A DNA stretch of 64,000 nt, from positions 1,674,001 to 1,738,000 of the forward strand of contig NZ_CP163423.1 of assembly GCF_041429785.1 (NCBI RefSeq). Direction: 5' to 3'. The position numbers and the translations under genes are program-made. Origin of the DNA: Fretibacter rubidus. GTDB lineage: Bacteria > Pseudomonadota > Alphaproteobacteria > Caulobacterales > Maricaulaceae. Below the pieces are notes generated by a model. The model saw only the letters and a list, made by a program, of their open reading frames with translations, was not told the origin of the DNA and ran no database searches. Positions 52,432-61,470 of this stretch are shown here, piece by piece (within the stretch, counting starts at the first letter, position 1; every line of letters starts with the position of its first letter).

Positions 52432-53307
52432 CTAAAATGCCGGCAGTGGTAGGCTGCGGATATGCTCGGCACCGCCAACTTTTTCGGTGTAATTATCTGC
52501 CCCAACAAACTCAGACACGTAATCTTCCCAACCCTCTTTAGCCGTTGCATTGTAAGCTTTAAGATGCGCGACATCGAAGCCGTAATCAGGTCCATTTGAT
52601 GTTGGATGCGCGCCGAACTCAGCCTCTGCTACACCCGCAACACGGCTGCGCTCGATAGGCATTCGCAGAATTTTATAGTCGTCATTAAAGGCACTCGTCT
52701 CAACGATGCGTTCACAGCTAAGGTAAGATTTTTTAGCAGCACGGCAGAACCACTCATCAAAGAACATATCCGGTCCGCCAATCCAACTATTGCCGCGTTG
52801 ATCAGCTTCAGTTACGTGGCAAAGCGCGACATCAAGTTTCAATGCAGGCATAGCAACATAATGTTCATCGCTGTAGGGACTTTTAATGGTTTTAATGTCA
52901 GGATTATAGGTCATGACATCCGTACCAAGTCCCGCGACGCAGGGCAAAAAGTCTAAGCGCTGAGCCGCAGCTTTTAACCCGAGTTGAAACATACCCTCAT
53001 CAATTTCCATGACATCAAACTCCCCTGCGCTCCGTGCACGGCGGAAATGCGCCTCAAGCGGTATGGCGTCCAAAGTTACAAAACTAAACACCAGCTTCTT
53101 GATTTTACCCGCGCTGGCGAGCATGCCCACATCGCAGCCGCCATAAGAGACAATCGTCAAATCTTTCAGATTAGACTTCACAATCTCGCGGATAATCGCC
53201 ATGGGCTTTTGCCGTGCGCCCCATCCGCCTATACCGATTGTCATGCCGTCTTCAAGAGAGGCAACGATACCGGCAACGCTCATGCGTTTATCTAAGATAT
53301 TTGTCAT
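52432..53307 (-). CDS. ipdA: COCHEA-CoA hydrolase, IpdA-like alpha subunit
   Basis: A 291-residue class I CoA-transferase-fold protein. It shows GMTIGIGGWGARQKPMAIIR, LTIVSYGGCDVGMLASAGKI, MEIDEGMFQLGLKAAAQRLD and LPCVAGLGTDVM, in the same order and spacing as mycobacterial IpdA (292 residues). IpdAB hydrolyses ring C of COCHEA-CoA, the last ring opening of steroid degradation. The ATG overlaps the stop of the dioxygenase gene by four bases, linking ring A/B and ring C/D modules in one transcript. Confidence 0.88.
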   Translation of the reverse strand: MTNILDKRMSVAGIVASLEDGMTIGIGGWGARQKPMAIIREIVKSNLKDLTIVSYGGCDVGMLASAGKIKKLVFSFVTLDAIPLEAHFRRARSAGEFDVMEIDEGMFQLGLKAAAQRLDFLPCVAGLGTDVMTYNPDIKTIKSPYSDEHYVAMPALKLDVALCHVTEADQRGNSWIGGPDMFFDEWFCRAAKKSYLSCERIVETSAFNDDYKILRMPIERSRVAGVAEAEFGAHPTSNGPDYGFDVAHLKAYNATAKEGWEDYVSEFVGADNYTEKVGGAEHIRSLPLPAF

Positions 53308-54206
53308 GCGTTTGGCTCCGGAAAATTATATTCATGTCCCCAAATATCACCCTCTGTGGATTTGGTTGGGGTAAAAGCGTCCCAGTCTTCAATCGTCTTG
53401 CCGTCATAACCGACTTCAAAGGCTATCCCGCCAGGGGCCATAAAATAAAAGCTAATCATTTCGTCATTGGAATGACGCCCCAGTGTGGCAAGGATATGAA
53501 GTCCGGCCGCTTTGACGCGGTCCATGCAATGTCCCACTTCGTCCATGCTTCCAACTTCCGCCATAAGGTGAACGACACCTGCGGGGTTTGGAAAATTATA
53601 CAGCGCAAGCGTATGGTGACGCGGATTATTGGCGTGCATGAAATAAACACGCTGATCTGGAAAATCAGGCGCAAAAGGTGGTAATGTTAAATCATCAGAA
53701 CAGCCAAAGCCCATCACATCCTCATAGAAACGAATGGTCGCATCGTTTTCCGGCGCGGGCAAAACGACATGCCCCAAGCCCATTTCACCGGTTTTAAACT
53801 CTTCAATATCGTGTAGCGGTGTAAAAGCGCTGCCCGTCTCGCGTCCGTAAAAAACTTCGACATTGTTGCCCGAAGGGTCCTGGCAAAAGGCAACAGCCTT
53901 AACCGCACGATGAGCCGCGTCCTCATCCGAACCCATAGTCACATCAACGCCAGCATCTTTATAGGCACTCATTTGCGCGTCAAAGACGGCTCTTGATCCC
54001 GCATCATAACCAGATGCGAGGTAACGGTCGCTGTCACCTTTGACAATCATATAACGAAAAGGGGCGTCATCCATACGGAGATATTGCGCATCAGCTTTTC
54101 CGTAGGATTTGCCTATGCCAAAGCCCAAAACATCTTGTGCAAATTCTGCCCAAGACATCGGGTCTGTTACCTGCAATACAGCATAGCCTAAATTTTCAAC
54201 ACTCAT
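53304..54206 (-). CDS. hsaC: Extradiol ring-cleavage dioxygenase (HsaC/TesB type)
   Basis: A 300-residue two-domain vicinal-oxygen-chelate dioxygenase that cleaves the catecholic A ring (3,4-DHSA) of the 9,10-seco steroid. The iron ligands are visible as His in [11 protein letters not shown], His in [13 protein letters not shown] and Glu in [11 protein letters not shown]. Usual Fe-binding C-terminal domain (about 145-290) and degenerate N-terminal domain are both present. It is coupled by four-base overlaps to hsaF upstream and ipdA downstream. Confidence 0.9.
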
Positions 54207-56193: not shown

Positions 56194-56976
56194 CTATACA
56201 AACTCAACATCGCAGGAGCCAAAGCCCGCAACCGTCATTGTCATTTTATCACCTGCTACGACCGGCTCTAAAGGAACCAAAGAACCGGAAAGAATGATCT
56301 CGCCTGCCTCGAATGGTATTCCGTATTCTCCCAGAGTATTGGCAAGCCACGCCACGGCATTCTCTGGTGCGCCTTGCACGGCAGAGCCTGCACCGCGGCT
56401 TATCTCAACACCATTTTTTGCGACGACAGCCTCTAAAGCTGACAAGTCCAACTCCTGCGGATCAACTTTTTGCGCGCCGAGCACAAACACGCCGCAAGAC
56501 GCATTATCGGCAACAGTATCGCCGATTTTAATTTTCCAATCTTTGATGCGGCTATCAACGATTTCAAAACAAGGCTGCACATATTCCGTCGCGTCGAGCA
56601 CATCCTGAGCCGTAACGCCCGGCCCCTTCAGACCTTTCTTTAACTTAAACGCGATCTCAGCTTCCGCGCGCGGGGCAATATGATCCTTCATTTGGACTTT
56701 ACCGTTCGCCGCAAACATGGCGTCCGTCAAAAAACCAAAATCAGGCTGGAAGACGCCCAGCATGTCCTGCACAGGCTTGGACGTCACACCAATTTTCTTA
56801 CCAACGACGCGCTCGCCGTCCTGCTTTTGCCGCGCCTTTAAAAAAGCTAGCGATATTGCATATGCATCGTCCACAGTCATTTCAGGATAACGCTCAGTTA
56901 ATGGCGCCATAGGCTCTCCTGAACGCAGAGCGCCGTAAAGTTCCTGCCCTAACCGTTCTGAATTGAACCCGCTCAT
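56194..56976 (-). CDS. hsaE: 2-Hydroxypentadienoate hydratase type enzyme (HsaE)
   Basis: A 260-residue MhpD/DmpE-fold hydratase that adds water to the 2-hydroxydienoate fragment released by HsaD. Seen blocks are GKKIGVTSKPVQDMLGVFQP, PRAEAEIAFKL (metal Glu pair), CFEIVDSRIKDWKIKIGDTV and GEIILSGSLVPLEPV. It directly abuts hsaD (one-base overlap) and precedes hsaG by ten bases. Confidence 0.92.
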   Translation of the reverse strand: MSGFNSERLGQELYGALRSGEPMAPLTERYPEMTVDDAYAISLAFLKARQKQDGERVVGKKIGVTSKPVQDMLGVFQPDFGFLTDAMFAANGKVQMKDHIAPRAEAEIAFKLKKGLKGPGVTAQDVLDATEYVQPCFEIVDSRIKDWKIKIGDTVADNASCGVFVLGAQKVDPQELDLSALEAVVAKNGVEISRGAGSAVQGAPENAVAWLANTLGEYGIPFEAGEIILSGSLVPLEPVVAGDKMTMTVAGFGSCDVEFV

Positions 56977-57809
56977 TATCCGTTCACCAAAAAATCAATC
57001 GAAGCAGCATTAAATATTCGCGCATGCTCAATCATGACCCAATGCCCACATGCATTTAATTCAATCAGGCGAGAGTTTTCATTTGCCTTGATGCATTTCT
57101 CCTTACCTTGCGGGGGCATGAACTCGTCATTTGCCCCCCAAAAAGTCAAAATTGGGCAATTCAGCTCCGTCATCCGAGAGCCAAGCTCGGGCGTTTTCAT
57201 TGTTGTAAGAACTTCTTTAGGCTGCGTCTGCGCAACTGCCCATCGCATATCAATCAGCTCTTGCGTCACGTGTTTTGGATCGTATGTAAATAGCCGCATA
57301 ACCTCAGCCTGCGTCTCTTTGCTAACACCCGCCTTATTAGCCGCCATCATTTTAGCAATACCTGGCATGCCCCAATAATCGTCTTGCGGCTCCAAACATC
57401 CGGGCCCCATTAAAATGAGCTTCTTTACAAAATCCGGATTATTAAGCGCGATTTGAATAGCCACGCCGCCGCCGAGAGAATTCCCAACGAAACTGCACCT
57501 TTCAATACCAATCGCCTTTAGCCCTGCCATCAGCGTATCACAGAAAAGTTTGAGCGTATAATCTCCTAAATTCAATGGTTTATCACTATAACCGAAACCA
57601 ATCATGTCAGGCATGATGACGCGAAACCCTGCGGCAGCAAAGGCGTCTTTATTAAACTGAAAATTCGCCCAAGCGCTATTACCTGGCCCTGAGCCGTGCA
57701 GGAACACAACAGGATGACCCGCTCGGTCACCAAATTCCAAATAGTGCATGCGTATGGGACCGGCGTCGACATATCGACCTTCCGGCGGCCCTTTAATTTC
57801 GGACGACAT
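56976..57809 (-). CDS. hsaD: 4,9-DSHA meta-cleavage product hydrolase (HsaD)
   Basis: A 277-residue alpha/beta hydrolase that cuts the C-C bond of the meta-cleaved steroid A ring, giving HIP and a 2-hydroxydienoate. The oxyanion motif is VVFLHGSGPGNSAWANF, the Ser nucleophile is in SFVGNSLGGGVAIQIAL, the Asp in FWGANDEFMP and the His in NACGHWVMIEH. These are the features of the BphD/HsaD C-C hydrolase group. It overlaps hsaA by one base. Confidence 0.92.
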   Translation of the reverse strand: MSSEIKGPPEGRYVDAGPIRMHYLEFGDRAGHPVVFLHGSGPGNSAWANFQFNKDAFAAAGFRVIMPDMIGFGYSDKPLNLGDYTLKLFCDTLMAGLKAIGIERCSFVGNSLGGGVAIQIALNNPDFVKKLILMGPGCLEPQDDYWGMPGIAKMMAANKAGVSKETQAEVMRLFTYDPKHVTQELIDMRWAVAQTQPKEVLTTMKTPELGSRMTELNCPILTFWGANDEFMPPQGKEKCIKANENSRLIELNACGHWVMIEHARIFNAASIDFLVNG

Positions 57810-58987
57810 TAGAGGAAAAGATCGGTGTTTTCAGCGCCGAGCAATACGGCGCCATAATTACGACCAAAACTCACAGGATTGTTAGCAACATGCGCGCGCG
57901 CAATGTGCACATCATGCCAAATGTCTTGAATAGGGGAACCCTCATAGACACTACGGCCGCCAGCCACATCAAACAACATATCCATTGCCTTGATCATTTT
58001 CTCAATAACCAGACTGGCTTGGTAACGATATTTAATGCGGTCAATTAAAGGAATCTCTTCGCCGCTTTCAACCTGCTCCATCATTTTATCAAAATTACGG
58101 AACAAAACGACTTCAGTCTCATCAATCATATTCGCAACTTCGGCCACACGACGCGTCACATCAGGATCACTCGCAAGACGCGTTACATCCGTTGAGCTTC
58201 CCTGTGCATTATCAATAAAGAGCTGTAAGGCGTGCTTAACACCCCCAATAGCAGCGGAGCAAACCACACGAATGAAAGTCTGCGCCCATGGTATGTTATA
58301 CATTGGGCTTGTTTGAGGGTGCACACCATTAAAACCGTCCATCTGATGATGCGTGCGATAAGTCGGCACAAAGCACGGCTCATCAATGACAATGTCATTG
58401 GACCCTGTAGAGTGTAAACCCATAGGGAACCACGTGTCTTCGATAATGTAATCAGGCTTTGGAACCAGGAATGTGCGGTAATGTATTTTCTCTTTTCCTT
58501 GATCAAAAATGAGGCCCCCTAGGAGCACCCAGTCACAATGCGCGGACCCTGAACTCCACCCCCAACGACCAGAGAGTTTAAACCCACCATCAACCGTCTC
58601 AACTTTAGCGCCAGTAGGGTTATAAGACGATGATATAAGGGTATCAGGACCTGTCTTGCCGTAAACATCATCACAGGCCTTCGGATCCATCATCGCAAGC
58701 TGAAACGCGTGTATTGCAATGATACCCGTTGCCCAAGATGTTCCCATATCACGCTCAGCGATATCGATAGCGGCTCTAAAAAATTCGGAAGGATGGACCT
58801 CCATCCCGCCATACTGCTTTGGCAATACTGAACGGAAAAAACCAGAGTCGCGCAACGCCGTGATAACGGGCTCACTGATTCGTCTATTCTTACGTCCCTC
58901 AGCGGCATATTTTGAAATTACATCCAGAGCAGCAGAGACATCTAAGGTCTCTTCTGTTTCGACAGTTTTTAAAGCAGCTTGTCCCAT
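57809..58987 (-). CDS. hsaA: 3-HSA hydroxylase oxygenase subunit (HsaA), first gene of the steroid operon
   Basis: A 392-residue flavin-dependent monooxygenase with the acyl-CoA dehydrogenase fold. It hydroxylates the phenolic seco-steroid 3-HSA to a catechol, using reduced flavin supplied by HsaB. Signature regions are FRSVLPKQYGGMEVHPSEFF, LSGRWGWSSGSAHCDWVLLG and YRYQASLVIEKMIKAMDMLF, with the C-terminus IWHDVHIARAHVANNPVSFG. An acyl-CoA dehydrogenase role is unlikely because the catalytic Glu loop is absent. A strong ribosome binding site (GGAGGATACC) and a good promoter lie upstream. No hsaB-like reductase gene is in the window. Confidence 0.9.
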   Translation of the reverse strand: MGQAALKTVETEETLDVSAALDVISKYAAEGRKNRRISEPVITALRDSGFFRSVLPKQYGGMEVHPSEFFRAAIDIAERDMGTSWATGIIAIHAFQLAMMDPKACDDVYGKTGPDTLISSSYNPTGAKVETVDGGFKLSGRWGWSSGSAHCDWVLLGGLIFDQGKEKIHYRTFLVPKPDYIIEDTWFPMGLHSTGSNDIVIDEPCFVPTYRTHHQMDGFNGVHPQTSPMYNIPWAQTFIRVVCSAAIGGVKHALQLFIDNAQGSSTDVTRLASDPDVTRRVAEVANMIDETEVVLFRNFDKMMEQVESGEEIPLIDRIKYRYQASLVIEKMIKAMDMLFDVAGGRSVYEGSPIQDIWHDVHIARAHVANNPVSFGRNYGAVLLGAENTDLFL

Positions 58988-59104
58988 AATGGTATCCTCC
59001 GTTTCCTAGAGTATACTCCATATTGCGTAATTATCAACACGTTAAAATACGCATTTATGGATATTATGTCGCAAATTTAATCAAAATGCGTAATAAATTG
59101 GCAT
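58988..59104 (-). promoter_or_regulatory. Control region of the steroid operon with operator-like elements
   Basis: Minus-strand promoter: -35 TTGATA (59037-59032) and -10 TATACT (59015-59010), each five of six matches to consensus with a 16-base spacer. The near-palindrome TTGCGTAA (59023-59030) lies entirely inside the spacer. Related elements are ATACGCAT (59047-59054), TGTCGCAA (59067-59074) and ATGCGTAA (59086-59093). TGCGTA and TACGCA at 59024-59053 form a 30-bp dyad. This fits repression of the operon by a dimeric regulator. Confidence 0.65.
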
Positions 59105-60619
59105 TTAATTGCGCTTCAAAAGATATTTTTGAACTTTTCCAGACGCATTTCTCGGCAAAGAGTCGTGAAAAGTAACGCCGCGCGGCACCTTATAATTTGC
59201 CATATGAGCCCGTGACCAAACAATGATAGCCGCCTCATCCAGTGCAGGCGCAACGATATGGGCATGAGTAACTTCGCCCAGGCGGTCATCCTTCACCCCG
59301 ATAACAGCTACATCCTGCACATCAGGGTGTTGCAGCAAAACCTTCTCAATCTCAGCTGGGTAGCAGTTAAACCCGCCGACAATCACCATATCTTTTTTAC
59401 GGTCTGTGATTTTGACGTAACCTCGGTCATCAGAAATTCCAACATCGCCCGTCTTGAGCCAACCCTCGGGTGTAATCGCCTCAGCTGTCGCGGACGGGTC
59501 ATCCAAATACCCCTGCATGACATTAAAACCCTTCACCCAGATTTCACCAGCCTCACCCGTAGGGACGTCAAATCCTTCATCATCCACAATGCGCACAAAT
59601 GTGCCGTCCAGTGGGCGGCCACACGTTTTGGCTATGGTCTCTACATCATCAGTCGCCGAACACAGACTTACAACACCCGTGGACTCGGTCAGGCCATAGG
59701 CTGAATAAACATTATCAATCGCCAGATCCTCTCGCATTTTTCGGATAAGGTCGACAGGAATCGTCGTTGCTCCAGTTGTCGCAATTCGCAGGGACGAGAT
59801 ATCGAAATCATTGCGTTGCGGATAATCCAGCAATGTTTGAAAAATTGTTGGAGCGCCCGGCATAACAGTAATTTTATCGTCTTGGATTTGCTCCAAAACC
59901 TTAGCGGGATCATAGATCGCAAGCGGATAAATGGCAGCACCCTTTATCAAACAGGCCAGCCAACCTGCTTTATAGCCGAAGCTATGAAAGAAGGGATTGA
60001 CCACCAAATAACGGTCCTTTTCAGTCATACCAATCGCGGATGAAAACGCCTCGAAGACTTTGATATTCTGACCATGTGAGCTCATAGCCCCCTTAGGCGC
60101 GCCCGTCGTGCCGGAGGTAAATATAATATCAGCGAGGTCATCTTCATTTACGCGCGGCTCAGTCACAGCCTCTCCCGCACGGGACAGATAATTTTCAAAC
60201 GGCGCAGTTGATAACCCATCCTGCATGATCACAGTTTGCTTGAGGTCAGGTAAGTCAAACTCGCTTAAAGTTGCCTCGTAATCCTGACCTAAAAACCCGC
60301 GAATCGTGAAGAGAAATCTACACCGCGCACGCTTCAATATGTCTGCGGCTTCACTGCCTTTATACCGCGTGTTGAGCGTCACCAAAACACCCCCCAGCAT
60401 TTGTCCCGCCAGAGCGACAATAACCCATTGCGCGGAATTAGGCGCCCATATCGCAAAGCTGTCGCCCTTTTTCAGCCCCTCTGCCTCCATAACCCCAGCA
60501 ATGCGGCCGACAACGTCAGACAACTCTTGATATGTGAAGGACATATCGCCATCCTGCAATGCAAGGGCGTCAGCTTGCTGCGCCGCTTGTTTTAGCAGAG
60601 CATGTGGAATTGTGAGCAT
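59105..60619 (-). CDS. fadD3: Acyl-CoA synthetase FadD3-like
   Basis: A 504-residue AMP-forming ligase. Start ATG 60619 has AAGG upstream; the open frame to 60703 adds a basic tail that overlaps the divergent operator region and is not conserved. Motifs are IIFTSGTTGAPKGAMSSHG (ATP loop), VYSAYGLTESTGVVSLCS, GWLKTGDVGISDDRGYVKIT and NASGKVQKYLLK with the C-terminal Lys. Mycobacterial FadD3 activates HIP to HIP-CoA, the entry to the C/D-ring pathway encoded here. Other substrates are possible; the identification rests on context. Confidence 0.8.
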   Translation of the reverse strand: MLTIPHALLKQAAQQADALALQDGDMSFTYQELSDVVGRIAGVMEAEGLKKGDSFAIWAPNSAQWVIVALAGQMLGGVLVTLNTRYKGSEAADILKRARCRFLFTIRGFLGQDYEATLSEFDLPDLKQTVIMQDGLSTAPFENYLSRAGEAVTEPRVNEDDLADIIFTSGTTGAPKGAMSSHGQNIKVFEAFSSAIGMTEKDRYLVVNPFFHSFGYKAGWLACLIKGAAIYPLAIYDPAKVLEQIQDDKITVMPGAPTIFQTLLDYPQRNDFDISSLRIATTGATTIPVDLIRKMREDLAIDNVYSAYGLTESTGVVSLCSATDDVETIAKTCGRPLDGTFVRIVDDEGFDVPTGEAGEIWVKGFNVMQGYLDDPSATAEAITPEGWLKTGDVGISDDRGYVKITDRKKDMVIVGGFNCYPAEIEKVLLQHPDVQDVAVIGVKDDRLGEVTHAHIVAPALDEAAIIVWSRAHMANYKVPRGVTFHDSLPRNASGKVQKYLLKRN

Positions 60620-60714
60620 AACAGACCTTAATTTACGCAAAACATATCTTTGGCTATAGATTTTTACCTGAATGCGCAATATATCTATTAAAATTTTACG
60701 CAAAATGAGACTGT
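60620..60714. promoter_or_regulatory. Divergent control region fadD3 / SDR operon with repeated operator elements
   Basis: This 95-bp region carries TTACGCAA twice (60633-60640 and 60696-60703) and ATGCGCAA (60672-60679). TGCGCA and TACGCA at 60673-60702 form a dyad of exactly 30 bp, the same length and half-sites as the one in front of hsaA, and share the TGCGyAAT start. Promoter hexamers are not clear enough to call. Confidence 0.6.
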
Positions 60715-61470
60715 ATGAAATTCAAAGATAAAACGATTATCATCACTGGCGGCGGAAAAGGCATAGGACGCGCCATCACAGAGCGCTTTGTTTCAGAAGG
60801 TGCACACGTCATAATATGTGGCCGTCGAGACCCAGAGACATTGCCGGAAAATACGCATTTCCTTGCGCTCGATATCAGAGAAGCTGAAGCCGCACAGACG
60901 CTAATCGACTTTGCCATCGAAAAGACTGGCCGCATAGATTGCCTGATTAACAATGCAGGCGGCGGCCCGCCCGTTGCCAGTGCAGAGGCCAGCCCACGCC
61001 TGACGGAAAAAATAGTGGCTTTAAACCTGATGGCCCCGATATACCTCTCACAGGCCGCCTACCCTCACCTCAAGAAAACCAACGGCTCAATTGTCAATAT
61101 TTCAAGCGTATCTGCCACCCGGTCCTCACCAGGCAGTGTCGTATATGGCGCGTCAAAGGCAGGGCTTCTGGCCGTGACAACCTCACTCGCTATGGAATGG
61201 GCCCCTGAAATTCGGGTAAACGCTATTATAGTCGGACTTGTCAAAACCGAAGCCAGTGAAGATCATTATGGGGGCGTAAAGGGCATGGCACATTTATCAA
61301 GTGCACTTCCTATGAAACGCATGGGCGCGCCAGATGACATCGCCAAAGCCTGCGCCTTTCTCGCCGATAGTGAAAACAGCTATGTTTCAGGCGCGGCATT
61401 AGAAGTGTTTGGCGGCGGTGAACCGCCCTATTTCCTCAAGATTGCAGAAGAGGCCTATAATCTAAAATGA
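60715..61470 (+). CDS. Short-chain dehydrogenase/reductase (steroid locus)
   Basis: A 251-residue classical SDR with IIITGGGKGIGRAITERF, INNAGGGPP, the Ser in IVNISSVSATRSSPGSVV and Tyr/Lys in YGASKAGLLAVTTSLAMEWA. It probably acts on a hydroxysteroid or hydroxyacyl-CoA. It is the first of three plus-strand genes, divergent from fadD3, and is coupled to the next by ATGA. Confidence 0.87.
   Translation: MKFKDKTIIITGGGKGIGRAITERFVSEGAHVIICGRRDPETLPENTHFLALDIREAEAAQTLIDFAIEKTGRIDCLINNAGGGPPVASAEASPRLTEKIVALNLMAPIYLSQAAYPHLKKTNGSIVNISSVSATRSSPGSVVYGASKAGLLAVTTSLAMEWAPEIRVNAIIVGLVKTEASEDHYGGVKGMAHLSSALPMKRMGAPDDIAKACAFLADSENSYVSGAALEVFGGGEPPYFLKIAEEAYNLK

Follow-up and report, generated by a model that had tools for sequence, protein, structure and literature searches.

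A rigidly spaced tripartite operator in steroid gene clusters of marine alphaproteobacteria, with a tandem Lrp/AsnC pair as the probable regulator

The control of steroid degradation in alphaproteobacteria is largely unknown, the described regulators being mainly of the TetR family in actinobacteria and of the LuxR type in Comamonas. The window analyzed here, a stretch of 64,000 nucleotides at positions 1674001 to 1738000 of the single 3.45-Mb contig of an alphaproteobacterium from the Hellea balneolensis family (Robiginitomaculaceae, Maricaulales in the NCBI taxonomy), carries in its right part a steroid 9,10-seco cluster that runs on for ∼45 kb past the window end. An earlier note had described recurring short elements in two intergenic regions of this cluster and suggested that they may define a new steroid regulon. 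The locus raises the question of whether these elements are regulatory sites and which protein would read them. Homologues of HsaA, HsaC, HsaD, FadD3, and KstD are found together, and by these predicted functions the target genes are those of a steroid 9,10-seco catabolic cluster (Table 1), with the KstD-like flavoprotein matched by generic models only. The hsaA-like gene is the first of a large steroid operon and lies downstream of one of the operators described below. For the ligase, the ATG start at 60619 was preferred over a TTG further upstream.

Table 1. Positions of genes, operators, and candidate regulators in the window and in the adjoining genome
Feature	Numbering	Position	Strand	Remark
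HsaC-like (bphC/HsaC-type) extradiol dioxygenase	window	53304..54206	-	HsaC model second-best, after biphenyl-diol dioxygenase
HsaD-like	window	56976-57809		best model HsaD, below curated cut-off
HsaA-like monooxygenase	window	57809..58987	-	best NCBIfam/Pfam model HsaA, below curated cut-off
Predicted hsaA promoter, TTGATA-N16-TATACT	window	59010..59037	-	plus-strand 59037-59010
Tripartite operator of hsaA promoter	window	59024..59092	-	exact match
30-bp dyad core, TGCGTA-N18-TACGCA	window	59024..59053		hexamers 59024-59029, 59048-59053
Looser element, GTCGCA	window	59068..59073		at unoccupied 21-bp lattice position between hexamers
Third hexamer, TGCGTA	window	59087..59092		exactly 63 bp from first hexamer
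FadD3 family acyl-CoA ligase	window	59105..60619	-	658 bits vs curated cut-off of 657
Tripartite operator, divergent fadD3-like ligase/SDR	window	60634..60702	+	one mismatch, middle hexamer TGCGCA for TGCGTA
30-bp dyad core, TGCGCA-N18-TACGCA	window	60673..60702
SDR oxidoreductase	window	60715..61470	+	NF005893; divergent from fadD3-like ligase
Tripartite copy	genome	1738640		SnoaL-like/flavin reductase
Exact dyad	genome	1743204		SDR/kstD-like
Candidate regulators, two adjacent Lrp/AsnC genes	genome	1744930-1745400, 1745400-1745864		∼7 kb right of window
Tripartite copy	genome	1747715		fadD/TonB receptor
Exact dyad	genome	1751462		transporter/flavin oxidoreductase
Tripartite copy	genome	1756504		near flavoprotein
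Exact dyad	genome	1761706		TonB receptor
Tripartite copy	genome	1780583		propionyl-CoA carboxylase

All seven reported elements were found at their positions when the sequence was checked, with TTGCGTAA at 59023, ATACGCAT at 59047, TGTCGCAA at 59067, and ATGCGTAA at 59086 in the first region, and TTACGCAA at 60633, ATGCGCAA at 60672, and TTACGCAA at 60696 in the second. The dyads formed by their halves, said to measure exactly 30 bp in both regions, did so. The palindromic 8-mer TTRCGYAA, proposed as the recurring unit, did not hold up; nine copies were found in the window, just three of them in these regions, and since it shows no concentration here within the window, it was rejected as the operator unit. 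A third fixed hexamer had been overlooked, with a direct spacing of 63 bp common to both regions. The 30-bp dyads are the cores of a 69-bp tripartite operator, TACGCA-N33-TGCGTA-N18-TACGCA, and the information lies in the hexamer TGCGTA/TACGCA and its fixed spacings of 24, 39, and 63 bp rather than in the 8-bp palindrome. At the position of the looser GTCGCA element, no strong site was seen in a profile of 77 elements, which is described further below.

Pattern searches of the 3.45-Mb genome returned four exact tripartite matches, against ∼1e-4 expected from uniform base counts. These and two further copies with one mismatch were all located within the steroid region, and when up to three mismatches were allowed, 11 of 12 matches fell in 48 kb of it. 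The same 48 kb contained every exact TGCGTA-N18-TACGCA dyad of the genome (7/7), and the pattern is thus not equally frequent outside the steroid region; equal frequency is what the earlier note had named as speaking against a regulon. The simple site WWWTGCGTAAWWWW occurred 20 times genome-wide, with 12 copies in the 48 kb (binomial p 5e-18). The other eight were solitary, without partner hexamers, and at least two spanned start codons (ATGCGTAAA and similar); for these reasons they were rejected as operators. A solitary TGCGTAA site just downstream of another Lrp/AsnC gene (genome 2913414-2913726) had no partner hexamers and is probably a chance match. TonB-dependent receptors fronted by operators, at genome 1747788-1750118 and 1759088-1761703 and in relatives' stretches (L142, L133, L138, and L141), are probable outer-membrane steroid uptake proteins.

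The tripartite pattern was then searched with up to two mismatches in 137 genomes of the family, with a reversed pattern as control. Between 3 and 11 sites per genome were found in 19 of the 137, that of the window included, and none or one in the rest. The reversed pattern gave counts near zero, and a control with the spacing shifted by 2 bp (N31/N20) gave five scattered singletons in the 137 genomes and none in the window's genome. The expectation that the element should recur upstream of orthologous genes in relatives was borne out in ∼19 of the 137 family genomes. Operators preceded hsaA in 11 of 11 clusters compared, and the further orthologous targets were fadD3/SDR, flavin reductase/SnoaL-like, kstD-like/SDR, fadD, and TonB receptors. 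Compared with the HsaC-like gene across the 137 genomes, 16 had both, 3 the operator only, none the HsaC-like gene only, and 118 neither. By these comparisons, the same rigidly spaced putative control DNA fronts nearly every steroid gene cluster in steroid-eating marine alphaproteobacteria.

A syntenic cluster was also found in the PS1-clade genome G286, with HsaA and HsaC at 68% and 62% identity, respectively, and with the operator or its dyad core kept at two orthologous places. A small (1.9-Mb) PS1-clade genome (IMCC14465 / PS1 clade; L113, L115, L171, and L172) was observed to carry a syntenic steroid cluster, the Lrp pair introduced below, and the operator.

The placement of one hexamer inside the 16-bp spacer of the hsaA promoter, as claimed in the earlier note, was confirmed in the sequence. 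The arrangement was the same at the hsaA operators of 11 of 11 genomes, with the −35 box at columns 56 to 61, a 16-bp spacer containing the third hexamer (columns 64 to 69), and the −10 box at columns 78 to 83. In the hsaB group, the −35 box occupied columns 22 to 27 and the −10 box overlapped the middle hexamer. No promoter as clear as those of hsaA and hsaB was seen in the remaining target groups. The suggestion of a repressor, which had been drawn from promoter overlap, is therefore supported at hsaA and hsaB, and repression is favored because the operators overlap conserved promoters.

The statement that no regulator gene lies in the window was also correct; the candidate Lrp/AsnC pair was missed by the earlier reader because it starts 7 kb beyond the window end. 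Both proteins matched the HTH_AsnC-type domain (2.5e-13 and 1.1e-10) and AsnC_trans_reg (7.3e-12 and 3.2e-10), all above the gathering score, and there were PDB matches to Lrp/AsnC proteins. With an N-terminal AsnC-type helix-turn-helix and a C-terminal AsnC/RAM ligand domain in a protein of ∼150 residues, both are predicted Lrp/AsnC regulators, and the two paralogues are ∼34% identical to each other. The ortholog of the second lrp gene, always accompanied by its neighbor, was found in 18 of the 137 genomes, 17 of them among the 19 bearing operators. Pair and operator thus occurred together in 17 genomes, the operator alone in 2, the pair alone in 1, and neither in 117 (Fisher p 1.4e-18, computed as if the genomes were independent, although they are related). 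Shared ancestry alone is an unlikely cause of the association because of its patchy spread over six genera. Presence or absence was concordant in 134 of 137 genomes, and both were present in 17 of the 20 having either. The operator-only exceptions were two incomplete genomes (77 to 82% complete), and in the Lrp-only exception (G001) the operators were degenerate.

Position also links the pair to the operator. In at least seven relatives, which were most of those inspected, an operator lay directly upstream of the lrp pair, and this suggests autoregulation. The window's genome has no operator immediately before the lrp genes; the pair stands behind a fadD gene with an exact operator 37 bp upstream, and the three genes presumably form one operon. 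The only other regulator gene noticed in the operator-bearing region, a Crp/Fnr-like gene at 1774067, was rejected as the regulator because nothing matching it turned up in the stretches of relatives that were inspected. A TetR or IclR regulator, as the earlier note had envisaged, appears unlikely, since a genome-wide search confined to TetR placed the nearest of six TetR genes ∼440 kb from the cluster and the Lrp/AsnC pair lies inside the regulon. In two genomes of another alphaproteobacterial family (G382 and G462; L174 and L175), a related tandem Lrp pair was present, in G462 close to steroid-like genes. Neither genome contained this operator at up to two mismatches, and no alternative array of inverted hexamers at 24 bp was found in the stretches read, so either the specificity drifts or the link between pair and operator is not strict.

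The architecture of the operator was examined in 38 stretches from relatives (698 kb), in which exact hexamer pairs were separated by 24 bp 37 times, by 39 bp 36 times, and by 63 bp 33 times, with no other distance occurring more than 3 times. The set of 77 elements was reduced to 51 by dropping those that shared ≥60% of spacer bases, and in both sets sequence conservation was restricted to the hexamers. The AT content of the spacers, however, which is not conserved as sequence, oscillated with a period of 10.4 to 10.5 bp. None of 5,000 column permutations was as strong, a rotation null was far below the observed value, and the oscillation was also present in the 51 nonredundant elements. AT maxima were located near columns −13, −3, 8, 17, 28, 38, 49, 60, and 79, and the phasing spanned about −25 to +80, or roughly 105 bp. 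The hexamers lay about half a turn off these maxima, with their TAC ends at columns 2, 44, and 65, at intervals of 42 and 21 bp, which correspond to four and two turns. A fourth, outer hexamer at lattice position −23 was only weakly enriched and is not counted as part of the operator. Taken together, the AT phase and the hexamer placement look like DNA bent around a protein, with the minor grooves of the AT-rich tracts and the specific contacts in the major groove turned toward it. A point against binding by Lrp proteins is that the TGCGTA hexamer is not the canonical 15-bp Lrp palindrome and provides only one strong half-site per unit. The 77 sites form a large natural set of an Lrp-type operator that gives direct access to the spacing and the AT phase. 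Such a set is unusual, since the degeneracy of Lrp sites normally defeats their prediction.

We hold with good confidence that both regions serve as operators in a steroid regulon, most likely bound by the Lrp/AsnC pair, with the DNA wrapped and transcription repressed until a steroid-derived ligand is present; to this extent the proposed new steroid regulon is supported. The products of the pair would bind an extended site, consisting of the 69-bp core within ∼105 bp of phased AT-rich DNA, as several Lrp dimers on one face of the helix, and the DNA would be wrapped around the oligomer, wrapping being proposed because of the 10.5-bp AT periodicity in the spacers. Without inducer, the wrapped complex would cover the −35/−10 region and repress transcription. 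A ligand from the steroid pathway, probably a CoA thioester, would bind the C-terminal domain and open the complex. The simplest fit would place dimers every 31.5 bp (three turns) in alternating orientation with one specific half-site each, which would give the 24/39 alternation. Pairing of the two paralogues in a heterodimer would account for the asymmetry and for the invariable gene pair, and the repeat of such a hetero-oligomer would be 63 bp, or six helical turns, per two sites. We put forward more tentatively that the hetero-oligomer is obligate, with one partner per dimer reading the hexamer, and that alternating dimers every three turns constitute a 24/39-bp wrapping code dedicated to steroid catabolism across orders of marine Alphaproteobacteria.

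Of the other explanations, the one that survives best is activation by the Lrp pair in place of repression, with the wrapped complex aiding RNA polymerase at all targets or at some of them. Promoter positions vary between targets, overlap is compatible with activation at some of them, and a single intergenic region can serve Lrp-type regulators for both activation and repression (PMC10201364). This was nevertheless considered rather unlikely, as the hsaA and hsaB operators of all or almost all genomes in the comparison have hexamers within the promoter spacer or on top of the −10 box, which is where repression usually takes place. Distinctly less probable is that the operators are bound by some other, unlinked regulator of the TetR, LysR, or Lrp/AsnC type and that the tandem lrp genes are just one of its targets. 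The genome does encode seven further Lrp/AsnC proteins besides its six TetR genes, and the pair carries an operator as any target would. Autoregulation is, however, usual among Lrp/AsnC regulators. Against an unlinked regulator also stand the agreement of pair and operator in nearly all genomes, the standing of the pair as the only regulator noticed in the operator region apart from the unmatched Crp/Fnr-like gene, and the rigid helical-phase arrays with AT phasing, which suit Lrp better than TetR or LysR.

Several identically spaced copies in one gene cluster might also have arisen from a dispersed repeat or a mobile element, but this is very improbable and was rejected because the spacers are not conserved; they differ freely, as the number of elements left after redundancy removal indicates, with just the hexamers and the AT phase kept, and the copies precede orthologous genes across genera as well as in the PS1 clade. 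That a common AT-rich motif recurred here by chance, for which the unconcentrated 8-mer and the solitary matches outside the cluster could be cited, has a negligible probability given the spacing statistics, the shifted-spacing control, and the conservation.

The proposed binding of the pair resembles described Lrp-type complexes. Lrp dimers recognize 13- to 17-bp sites that lie two or three helical turns apart and turn an AT center toward the protein, and the DNA is wrapped around the dimers; archaeal BarR wraps DNA with 15-bp sites two helical turns apart on an octamer, and in Ss-LrpB three dimers wrap ∼100 bp (PMC2995911, PMC10201364). Common to the latter two systems and the steroid operator are multiple sites on one helix face, an AT-rich control region with ∼100 bp involved, sites in front of divergent targets and of the gene for the (here candidate) regulator, and a regulator with an AsnC-type helix-turn-helix and a RAM domain. 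The steroid operator differs in having one strong TGCGTA/TACGCA hexamer per site in alternating orientation with a strict 24/39-bp alternation, in its two tandem paralogous candidate regulators, and in targets that belong to steroid catabolism rather than to amino acid metabolism.

Among regulators of steroid degradation, KstR and KstR2 are TetR family proteins that control actinobacterial cholesterol catabolism (PMC6678751). Their regulons share the target functions found here (hsaA-D, fadD3, kstD, and ring C/D genes), and derepression by a pathway CoA thioester is proposed for the present system as well. The operator is, however, a different and longer element unrelated to the short TetR palindrome, in support of the earlier remark that it is not KstR2-like, and a KstR/KstR2 or other TetR explanation was rejected because there is no TetR gene within 440 kb. 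TesR/TeiR (LuxR type), RepA, and HsdR of Comamonas testosteroni regulate proteobacterial steroid degradation but belong to different protein families; the review that covers these and the KstR proteins includes no Lrp-type steroid regulator and no comparable operator array (PMC6678751). A 2026 paper mentions in passing, as annotation, that the bile-salt cluster of Sphingobium sp. Chol11 contains the contiguous Lrp/AsnC genes NCHOL11_RS15865/RS15860 (PMC12882949). The likeness to the present pair, namely that two such genes stand side by side within a steroid cluster, is one of annotation and does not imply orthology, and no operator or regulon is given for the Chol11 pair (PMC12882949). Text searches of the literature, in which subscription journals were mostly uncovered, found no earlier account of steroid catabolism under an Lrp-type operator or regulon, and a search for H. 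balneolensis together with steroids returned nothing relevant.

The gain is an operator that is now defined, a pair of candidate regulators, and a predicted regulon that comprises ring degradation, fadD3, kstD-like, TonB receptor, transporter, and propionyl-CoA carboxylase genes. Testing is possible in culture with the type strain Hellea balneolensis DSM 19091, and the operator could be used as a marker of steroid degradation genes in marine metagenomes.

Two minor observations bear on the history of the cluster. The closest Lrp pair (87% identity) was found in a different genus, in G001, while two incomplete genomes of the same genus were without the pair (G000, G001, G005, and G006). This relation and the patchy distribution over genera suggest that the whole steroid system was moved by horizontal transfer or repeatedly lost. 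The last operator to the right of the window, that of propionyl-CoA carboxylase (genome 1780583-1780651), adjoins a tyrosine-recombinase/integrase-like gene (1781087-1782301), and given this neighbor the end of the steroid region may be an island boundary.
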